From the NCBI GenBank assembly GCA_035504415.1, contig DATJRY010000017.1:310001-374000 (forward strand): a stretch of 64,000 nucleotides of DNA, read 5' to 3'. The notes under the pieces were generated by a model, which was given only the letters and a program-made list of their open reading frames with translations, was not told the origin of the DNA and did no database searches. The position numbers were made by a program, and so were the translations under genes. This stretch comes from Candidatus Sulfotelmatobacter sp. GTDB taxonomy: Bacteria > Vulcanimicrobiota > Vulcanimicrobiia > Vulcanimicrobiales > Vulcanimicrobiaceae. Within the stretch, counting starts at the first letter, position 1. The number at the start of each line of letters is the position of its first letter. Below are positions 23,240 to 28,939 of this stretch, one piece after another.

Positions 23240-24616
23240 ATGCGTCGTGACGTCGAGCGTTCGATCGAGGCCCTGCGACATCTGCCGGCCGGCGATCTCG
23301 CCGCGCGCGAGCACGTGGTGGTGGTGCGCGACGCGATCGCGTCCGCCGGCGACGACGAGCTGCTCGCGTTACTGCGCCGGTTGGACGCGCTCGACGTCGA
23401 TCCGGCCCACGTCGAGATGGCGCTCGAAACCGTGCACCTGGCCGCCGAACCGGTGGCTTGGCGGCGCGCGTTGGGCGAGCTGCGCGTCGCCCTGGAGCCT
23501 GCGCGCGACCGCGTCCTGGGTCACCTGGCCGGACCGCCGGGCGAGCTGCGGCTGATCTTGACCTTGCGCGCCGGCCTGCTGCGCCTCGCGCCGGGCGGCG
23601 AGAAGGCCGAGCTGGCCGCGCTCGACGACGACCTGCGGCGCTTCTTGGCCTCGCGCTTCGACGTCGGCATCCTCGAGCTGCGCCGGCTGACGTGGCAAGA
23701 CTCCGCCGCGCTCCTCGAGCGCCTGGCGCGCTCCGAAGCGGTGCACGCCGTGCGCGGCTGGTTCGACCTCAAGGACCGGCTCGACGAGGACCGGCGCGTC
23801 TACGCGTTCTTCCATCCCGCGCTCCCCGACGTGCCGCTCGCGTTCACCGAGGTCGCGTTGACCGAAGAGACGCCGGCCACGATTCGCGCCATCCTCAACC
23901 GCGACGCACCGCGCGTCGATCCGGCGCAGGCGCGCGCCGCGACCTTCTACTCGATCACCAGCGCGGAGCCCGGGTTGACCGGCATTCCGCTCGGCAACGC
24001 GCTGATCAAGCGCTGCGTCGAGCGGCTGCGCAACGACCTGCCGAAGCTGCGCACGTTCGCGACGCTCTCGCCGATGCCGGGCTTCGCCGCGTGGCTGCGC
24101 TCGCGCGGCGACGCCGTGCCGGCGTTCGTGCGCCAGGCGCTGGCGACGCCGGGCTGGCAGCGCGACGCGACGCTGACGGCCGAGCTGCGCGAGCCGATGC
24201 TGCGGCTGGGCGCGCAGTATCTCGTCGCGGCGAAGCGCGCCGACGGCGCGCCGCGCGACGCGGTCGAACGCTTCCACCTCGGCAACGGCGCCAGCGCCGA
24301 TCGCGTCAACTGGCTCGGCGATCCGAGCCAGCACGGGGTCGAGCAATCGTACGGGTTGATGGTCAACTACCGTTACGCGCTCGACCGGGTCGGCGCGAAC
24401 CAGGTCGCCTACGCCGCCGAGCACCGCATCGCGGCGTCCGCCTCCGTGCGCGGCCTCGCGACCGCCGCGGAAGAAGAGCAAGCGGCGGCCGCCGCGACCG
24501 AGCGCCGCTCGCCGCTCGACCGCTTGCTGGGCGCCGTGCGCGCGCTGCCGGCACGCTGGCGGCGGCGTTCGTCCCTTGACGCGGCGTCGGCCGACGTGGT
24601 ACCGTCCCCGCAATGA
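23240..24616 (+). CDS. Malonyl-CoA decarboxylase
   Basis: The 458-residue product has the MCD N-terminal helical domain and C-terminal acetyltransferase-like domain. Diagnostic stretches are FYSITSAEPGLTGIPLGNAL, LRTFATLSPMPGFAAWL and FHLGNGASADRVNWLGDPSQ, then QSYGLMVNYRY; the catalytic Ser and His (SPMPG, FHLGNG) are present. It converts malonyl-CoA to acetyl-CoA and CO2, limiting fatty-acid synthesis or degrading malonate. A basic 40-residue tail ([17 protein letters not shown]) extends beyond the family core. The start is ATG 23240 after GGCGGTTAGGAG. The Met-rich leader peptide below starts inside its stop codon. Confidence 0.95.
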   Translation: MRRDVERSIEALRHLPAGDLAAREHVVVVRDAIASAGDDELLALLRRLDALDVDPAHVEMALETVHLAAEPVAWRRALGELRVALEPARDRVLGHLAGPPGELRLILTLRAGLLRLAPGGEKAELAALDDDLRRFLASRFDVGILELRRLTWQDSAALLERLARSEAVHAVRGWFDLKDRLDEDRRVYAFFHPALPDVPLAFTEVALTEETPATIRAILNRDAPRVDPAQARAATFYSITSAEPGLTGIPLGNALIKRCVERLRNDLPKLRTFATLSPMPGFAAWLRSRGDAVPAFVRQALATPGWQRDATLTAELREPMLRLGAQYLVAAKRADGAPRDAVERFHLGNGASADRVNWLGDPSQHGVEQSYGLMVNYRYALDRVGANQVAYAAEHRIAASASVRGLATAAEEEQAAAAATERRSPLDRLLGAVRALPARWRRRSSLDAASADVVPSPQ

Positions 24617-24693
24617 TCCGCACGACCGCCGCGTCCATGATGCGAATGATGCGCACCCGCACCAGCGGTCGGCGGTACTTCGTCTTGCGATAG
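24613..24693 (+). CDS. Methionine-rich leader peptide (26 aa)
   Basis: ATG 24613 overlaps the decarboxylase stop (ATGA) and opens a 26-codon frame that ends TAG 24691-24693. It reads MIRTTAASMMRMMRTRT followed by SGRRYFVLR. Two Met-Met pairs (24637-24642 and 24646-24651) sit in mid-peptide, the place where control codons of attenuator leaders lie. A terminator follows at 24719-24752 and a cystathionine gamma-synthase gene at 24794. TTGACG (24575) with an 18-bp spacer and TACCGT (24599) could promote a nearly leaderless start, but the -10 is weak. It is probably a regulatory translation product with no protein function. Confidence 0.75.
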   Translation: MIRTTAASMMRMMRTRTSGRRYFVLR

Positions 24694-24730
24694 CGGCGCT
24701 CGCGCGCTTCGCACCACGAAGGTCCTCGCC
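24625..24730 (+). promoter_or_regulatory. Mutually exclusive leader hairpins (protector and antiterminator)
   Basis: Segment 1 ACCGCCG (24625-24631) can pair with segment 2 CGGCGGT (24670-24676). Segment 2 can instead pair with segment 3: GGCG plus CTTCGT (24671-24674, 24678-24683) with ACGAAG plus CGCC (24716-24721, 24727-24730). Segment 3 is also the left arm of the terminator. Thus 1:2, 2:3 and 3:4 are alternatives, as in trp-type attenuators. Confidence 0.6.
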
Positions 24731-24752
24731 GACGGCGAGGGCCTTTTCGTTT
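24719..24752 (+). terminator. Attenuator terminator upstream of the cystathionine gamma-synthase gene
   Basis: A 12-bp stem, AAGGTCCTCGCC / GGCGAGGGCCTT, with a GAC loop and one G-T pair, is followed by TTCGTTT. It lies 26 bases after the leader stop and 42 before the gene start. Confidence 0.8.
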
Positions 24753-24793
24753 CCCCGCGTGCCTTCCTCACCCACCGCCACGGAGTGCCTCTC

Positions 24794-26023
24794 ATGCCGA
24801 CCCCGACCGCCGGCCACTCTACCCCCGACACCAGCACCCGCCGTCGCGCCGGCGACGGCTTCGCGACCCGCGCGATTCGCGCCGGCCAGGATCCCGATCC
24901 GACCACCGGCTCGACCATCGTCCCGATCTACCAGACGGCGACGTTCACGCAGGACGCGGTGGGCGTCGACCGCGGCTACGACTACTCGCGCACCGGCAAC
25001 CCGACCCGACTCGCGCTCGAACGGCAGCTGGCGGATCTCGAAGGCGCGCGCTTCGGGTTCGCCTTCGCCTCGGGGATGGCGGCGGTCTTCGGCGCCTGCG
25101 CGATCGTGCGCGCGGGCGACCACGTCGTCGCGACCAGCGACCTGTACGGCGGAACGTACCGGCTGTTCGTCGACGAGCTGGCGCGGTGGGGCGTCGAGAC
25201 GACCTTCGCCGACACGACCGACGTCGAAGCGGTGCGCGCCGCGCTGCGGCCGACGACGCGCATGCTGTGGATCGAGACGCCGACCAACCCGCTGCTGCGG
25301 ATCGCCGATCTGCGCGCGCTCGCGGCATTGAAGCGACCGGGGCTCGTGCTGGCGGTGGACAACACGTTCTGCTCGCCGTACTGTCAGCGGCCGCTCGAGC
25401 TGGGCGCCGACCTGGTGGTGCACTCGACGACGAAGTACGTCAACGGCCACAGCGACGTCGTCGGCGGCGCGGTCGTCACCAGCGACGACGCGCTCGCGGA
25501 ACGGATCGGTTTTCACCAGAACGCCGTCGGTGCGGTGCCGGGACCGCAGGACGCGTACTTGACGCTGCGCGGCGCCAAGACGCTGGCGGTGCGGATGCGC
25601 CAGCACGAGCGCAACGCGCTCGCGCTCGCGCAGTGGCTGGAAGCGCAGCGCGACGACGTCGCGACGGTGTTCTATCCGGGCCTGGAATCACACCCCGACC
25701 ACGAGCTGGCGAAGCGGCAGCAGCGCGGCTTCGGCGGCGTCGTCTCGTTTCGCGTTCGCGGCGGCGCCGAACGCGCGGCGGCGTTGGCGAGCACGACCCG
25801 GCTGTTCAACCTCGCCGTCTCGCTGGGCGGCGTCGAGTCGCTGATCTGCGTACCGGCCGCGATGACGCACAAGACGGTGCCGCCCGAACGCAAGGCGCAG
25901 CTCGGCATCACCGACGACTTGTTGCGCCTCTCGGTCGGCCTCGAGGACGTCGAGGACCTGATCGCCGATCTGAGCGAGGCCTTCGTGCAGACGGCGCCGT
26001 TGGCGCAAGCGGCCCTCGTCTGA
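24794..26023 (+). CDS. metB: Cystathionine gamma-synthase/lyase-family PLP enzyme
   Basis: The 409-residue product starts at ATG 24794 (GGAG 8 bases upstream); the GTG at 24785 is less good. Cys/Met metabolism PLP-family motifs are [51 protein letters not shown], and the PLP-Lys motif [33 protein letters not shown] and [15 protein letters not shown] close the domain. The family includes gamma-synthases, gamma-lyases and methionine gamma-lyase, which sequence alone separates poorly. The upstream leader peptide with tandem Met codons argues for a biosynthetic (MetB) role controlled by charged tRNA-Met. Hom (5033-6343) provides the precursor. Confidence 0.93.
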
Positions 26024-26060: not shown

Positions 26061-27112
26061 GTGGGCTTCATGCGTTGGGCCCTCCGCGCCGCACCCCTCG
26101 TCGTGCTCGAGGTGCTCCTCATCGCCGCTCCGCCCGCCGCCCCGCAGAACGTGCCCTGGTCGCTGCAGCAAAGCGGAACGACCGCCGGGCTGCGGGGCAT
26201 TCATGCCGTCGACGACGAGGTCGCCTGGGCGAGCGGAACGGGCGGGACGGTGCTCCGAACGACGGACGGCGGTGCACGTTGGCAGGTGTGCGCCGCACCG
26301 CCCGGCGGGGAGAAGCTCGATTTCCGCGGGGTGTGGGCCTGGGATGCGAACGACGCGATCGTGATGTCGAGCGGGCCGGGCGCCGCGTCCCGGCTCTACG
26401 CGACGAGCGACGGCGGTACGTCGTGGACGTTGCTGGCGACGAACGCCGATCCGGCCGGCTTCTGGGACGCGCTCGTGTTTCGGTCGCGCGGCGAGGGTTA
26501 CGTGCTCGGCGATCCGCTCGCGGGTCGCTTCGTCGTGCTGCACACCACCGACGGCGGGCACACCTGGTCGCGGCTGCAGACGCGCGGCCTCGAAACGGAC
26601 GGCGTCGCGACCGGTGCGTTCGCGGCCAGCAACTCCTCGCTGCTCGCGCTGCGCGACGGGACGCTGCTGTTCGGGACCGGTGGCGCGCGCGCGTACGTCC
26701 GGCGACCCGGTGCGGACCGATGGACGCATGCCGAGCTGCCGCTCGCGCGCGACGGTGAGGCGGCCGGCGTGTTCGCACTCGCCGCGCGCACGGACGGCGC
26801 GCACCCCGTGCTGCTGGCGGTCGGCGGCGACTACGAACAACCGGGCGTGCGTGCCGGCACGGCGGCCTGGAGCGCCGACGGCGCGCAGTGGACGGCGGCG
26901 GCCGCGCCGCCGCACGGCTATCGCTCGACCGTCGCGTGGGCGGCACGCAGCGGCGTCTGGATCGCGGCCGGGACCAACGGCTCCGACCTCAGCCGCGACG
27001 ACGGGCGCACGTGGCAGCCCTTGGACGAGGGCACCTGGAACGCGCTGGGCCTGCCGTGGGTCGTCGGCCCGGGCGGCCGCATCGCCAAGCTCGCGCCGGA
27101 CGCGCTGCGCTG

Positions 27113-27113
<1 letters not shown>
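26061..27113 (+). CDS. Secreted Ycf48-like beta-propeller protein
   Basis: The 350-residue product starts at GTG 26061 (or ATG 26070) with a hydrophobic signal peptide (LRAAPLVVLEVLLIAAPPAA). It has repeated Asp-Gly-Gly-x-x-Trp turns (TTDGGARW, TSDGGTSW, TTDGGHTW, SRDDGRTW), the hallmark of BNR/sialidase-like propellers related to Ycf48 and to the photosystem assembly/oxidoreductase family. No sialidase catalytic residues are evident, so a binding or assembly role is more likely. It overlaps the ABC-F gene (TGATG). Confidence 0.83.

Positions 27114-28935
<1,822 letters not shown>

Positions 28936-28939
<4 letters not shown>

Follow-up and report, generated by a model that had tools for sequence, protein, structure and literature searches.

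A conserved leader with methionine control codons, probably a methionine-sensing attenuator, precedes cystathionine gamma-synthase in Candidatus Eremiobacterota

Why does a short open reading frame with four internal methionine codons and a terminator behind it precede a cystathionine gamma-synthase (CGS) gene? The locus lies in a stretch of 64,000 nucleotides (hereafter the window) of the genome of an uncultured soil bacterium from the Candidatus Eremiobacterota (G000, C17:310001-374000), and the initial annotation took it for a trp-style attenuator with methionine as the control residue. Leader-peptide attenuation is textbook material for Trp, His, Thr, Phe, and the branched-chain amino acids; met genes, in contrast, are mostly governed by riboswitches or repressor proteins. 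Our results show that the window leader is a genuine, conserved attenuator with methionine control codons. In cells, it very probably acts as a ribosome-mediated transcription attenuator of the trp type that would respond to the supply of methionyl-tRNA.

All features of the locus are on the plus strand. The leader ORF (24613-24693) consists of 26 codons, encodes the peptide MIRTTAASMMRMMRTRTSGRRYFVLR, and has methionine at codons 9, 10, 12, and 13; it ends with a UAG at 24691. The putative control codons AUG AUG CGA AUG AUG occupy positions 24637-24651. Downstream lies an intrinsic terminator (24719-24752), a hairpin of 12 bp with one G-U pair (24719-24745) and then TTTTCGTTT, with the U tract at 24744-24752. 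The regulated gene follows at 24794-26023. It scores 526.5 bits against the CGS family NF005871 of NCBIfam, whose curated cut-off is 513, and its ribosome-binding site GGAGTG (24782-24787) is kept across N-extended CGS orthologues (GAGTG in one of them). On re-reading the sequence, we found every coordinate given by the initial annotation for the leader, its two pairs of methionine codons, the stop codon, the pairings, and the terminator to be correct.

One could argue that the hairpin is an ordinary intergenic terminator of the upstream malonyl-CoA decarboxylase gene and that the ORF in front of it arose by chance. The hairpin stands just past the end of that gene, and GC-rich DNA yields many short ORFs: the 64-kb window contains 201 ATG-started ORFs of 12-40 codons, nested starts counted. 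Among those 201, the leader alone has at least four extra methionine codons. Its reading frame is the only one in the window in which a terminator lies within 110 nt of a Met-rich short ORF, and of the nested ORFs in that frame only the full-length leader has a promoter. Four methionines in 25 leader codons have a probability of about 1e-5 under the local base composition and of 1.4e-3 if a methionine usage of 2% is assumed. Its fold is also 3.3 s.d. more stable than those of dinucleotide shuffles. A chance ORF is further contradicted by a consensus promoter between the gene and the terminator.

This promoter is of the sigma-70 type (24576-24605), with the −35 element TTGACG at 24576-24581, an 18-nt spacer, and the −10 element TACCGT at 24600-24605. 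It lies within the 3'-terminal part of the gene for malonyl-CoA decarboxylase (PF05292), whose stop codon is overlapped by the leader ORF, and the leader ATG follows 7 nt past the −10 element. A promoter of its own with a −10 element ending just before the ATG makes the leader probably leaderless. In the 11 genomes of the genus, we counted 168 instances of TTGAC-N17-19-TAnnnT-N6-8-ATG, compared to six of a reversed control. Some of these sites stand before full-length genes and others before leader ORFs. Leaderless starts hence seem to be a common feature of this genus. The overlap with the upstream stop codon had been attributed to coupled or leaderless translation; the promoter inside the gene end favors the leaderless reading and speaks against coupling. 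Most likely, the leader is translated from a leaderless mRNA that would start at or beside its AUG, and is not coupled to the upstream gene.

The three alternative pairings proposed for the leader are real at the level of sequence. Segment 1 (24625-24631, ACCGCCG) is fully complementary to CGGCGGT at 24670-24676, and the two form a protector 1:2 helix. Segment 2, the predicted 5' half of the antiterminator (24671-24683), lies in the last leader codons. It can pair with segment 3 (24716-24730), the 3' half, which overlaps the 5' arm of the terminator; the stalled-ribosome fold contains this 2:3 pairing. In the ribosome-free minimum free energy fold, the segment 1 region is paired and the terminator is formed. 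When we modeled the fold codon by codon, sequestration of the terminator amounted to 14-17 kcal/mol with the A site on the methionine codons and to 18 kcal/mol at codon 14, and to 2-7 kcal/mol from codons 17-18 to the stop codon. The antiterminator formed at a modeled methionine stall is stronger than in 300 shuffles (p=0.003-0.007). In the models, the antiterminator is thus favored by a ribosome at or near the methionine codons and lost when the ribosome is at the stop codon. Such a dependence on the modeled ribosome position is not what one would expect of a chance ORF.

The proposed mechanism is as follows. Transcription would start at or beside the leader AUG, and a ribosome would load on the leaderless 5' end and translate the leader. 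With ample methionyl-tRNA, the ribosome would reach the UAG at 24691 and cover segment 2, the terminator hairpin would form, and CGS would not be transcribed. With scarce methionyl-tRNA, the ribosome would stall on the AUG codons 9-13, segment 2 would pair with segment 3, the terminator would be blocked, and CGS would be made. If no ribosome were present, the upstream helices and the terminator would form and CGS would be off. Methionine is a peculiar residue to sense in this way. One synthetase charges both the initiator and the elongator methionine tRNA, and methionine starvation should therefore also hit initiation on the leader; a lowered supply of initiator fMet-tRNA could blunt it.

To what extent is the arrangement conserved? 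For CGS relatives in the 99 genomes of the family, we scanned the sequence upstream of the gene; the genomes compared belong to uncultured lineages. A Met-rich leader with a terminator precedes the orthologous CGS gene in seven Eremiobacterota genomes from five genera (G000, G010, G025, G031, G011, G072, and G074). The leader ORFs have 23-26 codons, and the CGS start lies 166-186 nt from the leader ATG. All seven share the TTGAC-17/18-TAnnnT promoter, and the distance from the end of its −10 element to the leader ATG is about 7-8 nt. The peptides (MIRTTAASMMRMMRTRTSGRRYFVLR in the window genome and MNFSAGLMMRMMRTRESGRRCFRSG, MIRSQFAMSMRMTGCAPRGLVLLHVR, MMPAPITSMLSMRFMPESRIFRAG, MSTTFAMTSGLSCRMQMHRWGSL, MLEPSSLFMQMRNMMSRAEGHAWG, and MLEPSPFFMRMRNMMSRPAGRAWG in the others) have almost nothing in common except their methionine codons, which are in excess in each leader (P between 1e-5 and 3e-3 under the base composition). 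Despite this low similarity, the six further leaders retain at least three internal methionines, a terminator, and an upstream pairing that competes with it, as expected if the annotation was right. Terminator hairpins occupy the equivalent place in all seven, and in each an upstream segment can pair with the 5' arm of the terminator. This repetition contradicts the idea of a chance ORF before an ordinary terminator, which, together with the methionine excess, we now regard as very unlikely.

The CGS leaders are too divergent to be aligned for a covariance model, so we relied on shuffles and ribosome-position profiles. With the stall at the methionine codons, the antiterminator is stronger than in shuffles for G010 (p=0.013-0.027) and G031 (p=0.003). 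Four leaders (L007, L019, L043, and L045) have antiterminators that are individually weak or borderline and not significant alone when the stall is fixed at the last methionine. Fisher's combined p for the seven leaders, not all of which are independent, is about 7e-4 or about 3e-5, depending on the methionine chosen. The mutual exclusion of antiterminator and terminator in the fold models is strong for the window leader and for the metY leaders described below, and weaker in some CGS leaders.

The leader is not universal. It is missing from about as many N-extended CGS orthologues (L008, L009, L010, L012, L036, L037, and L038), and our upstream scans of the family turned up only one other ORF of this kind, which is unrelated and lies about 670 nt away. 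Two CGS genes of deltaproteobacteria (L056 and L063) have Met-rich ORFs nearby, but these come with neither promoter nor terminator and were discounted as chance occurrences. Upstream regions of metH contained no Met-rich leader. A separate observation concerns the CGS start itself: the DNA around it (24782-24830), with GGAGTG(n)ACTCATG and an in-frame GGCCACTC, is conserved with or without a leader (L006-L012 and L035-L045). Base pairing between the CACTC and the ribosome-binding site could provide control at the level of translation. At 27098-28936, two genes beyond CGS, an ABC-F type ATPase (two ABC domains with an extension) is encoded.

The reading of the window leader as a methionine-codon attenuator gains from a second leader, which contains methionine and cysteine codons and precedes O-acetylhomoserine sulfhydrylase (metY) and metX. 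It is found in all 11 genomes of the genus and in G120, which belongs to another genus (L285 at G000:C16:1000-1522, L223, L229, L231, L232, L235, L236, L241, L299-L301, and L361); in G003 it stands directly before metX. Its antiterminator is conserved: across 11 leaders, 90.9% of the cells at its 16 positions are paired, as opposed to 24-53% when the pairing is slid. In G008, a C-G pair of the antiterminator has become U-A, and the partner strand in the terminator has changed as well, which keeps both alternatives. This covariation is modest, with one pair changed on both sides among close sequences. In the fold model, sequestration in the 11 leaders is 9-25 kcal/mol with a stalled ribosome versus 3-6.5 kcal/mol with the ribosome at the stop codon, and the antiterminators beat shuffles in 11 of 11 cases (p between 0.005 and 0.03).

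The metY leaders also bear on the question of whether it is the peptide itself, rather than codon supply, that stalls the ribosome. Similar peptides of the MA(I/M)MAMCA type recur in several close relatives, as one would expect of a nascent-peptide arrest sequence. Yet the metY leaders fall into two subgroups, one with MAIMAMC and the other with MMMMCC or MMMCCC, and these and the seven CGS peptides share no motif beyond their methionine and cysteine codons. We consider arrest by the peptide to be extremely improbable.

It is equally hard to believe that the true sensor is a riboswitch for SAM or another metabolite, or a T-box, with the ORF being incidental. In other phyla, RNA control of met genes usually takes one of these forms (PMC6230763), which is a reason to consider them. 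First, no Rfam family matched in the window, a search that covered the SAM riboswitch classes other than SAM-I in the window only. Second, SAM-I riboswitches (RF00162) were found neither in the window nor in 10 related genomes, and T-boxes (RF00230) neither in the window nor in 12 related genomes, whereas the positive controls of both searches matched. Third, the seven CGS leaders do not share a conserved aptamer-like core.

Attenuation by leader peptides extends beyond these sulfur genes. A covariance model of the metY leader led us to a third kind of leader, Thr-rich with isoleucine and methionine codons and followed by a terminator. Each of the 11 genus members has it in front of the homoserine dehydrogenase gene, as do two genomes of another genus. 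In the window genome, this leader reads MTRCRMMTTTTMTTTLGEGRSRSTYA (L356, G000:C8:11300-12000); the others are L349-L355, L357, L358, L360, L362, and L363. Weak matches of the model outside clear leaders (e.g., L365 and L366) are not leaders. In four of the homoserine dehydrogenase leaders, the codon-by-codon profile of sequestration peaks on the Thr/Met/Ile run, a peak that comes without a shuffle control. Most of them are no better than shuffles when the stall is fixed at the last control codon, because a ribosome at this position already covers the antiterminator; the profile peaks one to a few codons earlier. Threonine, isoleucine, and methionine are the products of the branch point at which this enzyme acts.

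Leaders with cysteine or with cysteine and methionine codons precede sulfite reductase, PAPS reductase, and an SsuA-like sulfonate transporter (L293, L297, L359, L364, L367, and L368). Ile/Leu/Val leaders with a strong GC hairpin precede a branched-chain aminotransferase-like gene (L292 and L302-L305) and contain no internal methionine. The sulfur-assimilation and aminotransferase sets were picked by eye from promoter or model matches, so percentages for these sets are descriptive. Methionine makes up 15.8% of the CGS leaders and 14.5% of the metY leaders, which also contain 11.4% cysteine, and threonine makes up 29.0% of the homoserine dehydrogenase leaders. The enriched residues track the pathway product across five gene classes, and CGS, metY, metX, and hom all belong to the pathway of the amino acid that their leader would sense. 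Two further leaders were noticed. A poly-Cys leader, MFETGRSAMCCCLCRPRTGRPGFSLA, with a terminator stands before an AhpC/TSA peroxiredoxin gene (L291/L318, G000:C19:22081), an unexpected target for cysteine control, and a Cys-rich leader, MLPNLRCCCPCRVSSCSTRWLGLLLL, with a terminator stands before a gene that by eye resembles a LuxR-type regulator (L307, G010:C334:18140).

Could the CGS attenuator nevertheless mainly answer a signal other than methionine, such as a general slowing of translation, antibiotics, arginine (through its CGA and CGC codons), or the supply of formyl-Met for initiation? CGS leaders are also rich in arginine (17%), and leader-peptide attenuators can sense drugs. Moreover, the antiterminator is also strong over several codons other than methionine, since any early stall frees segment 2. 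We still think such a signal unlikely. Arginine is as common in the metY leaders (16.5%) and is spread through GC-rich codons, whereas methionine is clustered just ahead of the masking point, and leader codons agree with pathway products in five gene classes.

The leaders with methionine codons belong to a larger set of attenuators that covers several amino acids. It is probable that this Eremiobacterota lineage relies mainly on leaderless leader-peptide attenuators, rather than on SAM riboswitches and T-boxes, to control the aspartate family and the sulfur amino acids, with a codon mix that matches the products and elongator methionyl-tRNA as the signal for methionine. The Met-rich leader before CGS is very probably a built-in sensor that would switch on methionine genes when methionine is short. 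The codon mixes are a readable statement of each enzyme's product, which is useful for annotating uncultured bacteria.

How does this system compare with those already described? With attenuators of the trp/thr/leu/his type (trpL, thrL), it shares tandem control codons, the 1:2, 2:3, and 3:4 helices, an intrinsic terminator, and the masking of segment 2 by a ribosome at the stop codon. It differs from them in the control residue, methionine, which is also the initiator, in the probable leaderless initiation, and in its Eremiobacterota lineage. The thrL attenuator of E. coli responds to threonine and isoleucine. The homoserine dehydrogenase leaders follow the same multi-amino-acid logic with their threonine and isoleucine codons, and unlike thrL they add codons for methionine, which completes the three products of the branch point.

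Probably closer in its start is the leaderless polycysteine system of mycobacteria, called translation attenuation in PMC13236596 (Canestrari et al. 2020, PMID 32181921, as cited there). As with our probably leaderless leaders, a short ORF enriched in codons for a sulfur-containing amino acid lies ahead of genes for sulfur metabolism. For the mycobacterial leaders, an earlier survey of Actinobacteria did not see conserved terminator hairpins, and at methionine operons it detected no control by RNA (PMC1262725). Our leaders have both an intrinsic terminator and an antiterminator that matches it, and the codons in the CGS leader are those for methionine. Within the open-access literature, to which our search was confined, the only precedent for a methionine leader peptide is the metL prediction in Streptomyces lividans, a leader predicted to be leaderless, with methionine (and cysteine) codons, before metNIQ for which termination is unclear (PMC8079986). 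Both systems combine a Met/Cys leader, predicted or probably leaderless, with a methionine-related operon downstream. However, metL is one predicted locus with no comparative test, whereas the leaders described here come with a terminator, an antiterminator, and conservation at several genes. Hence, the class of mechanism is known, and it is the sensed residue, the probable leaderless start, and the lineage that are unusual.
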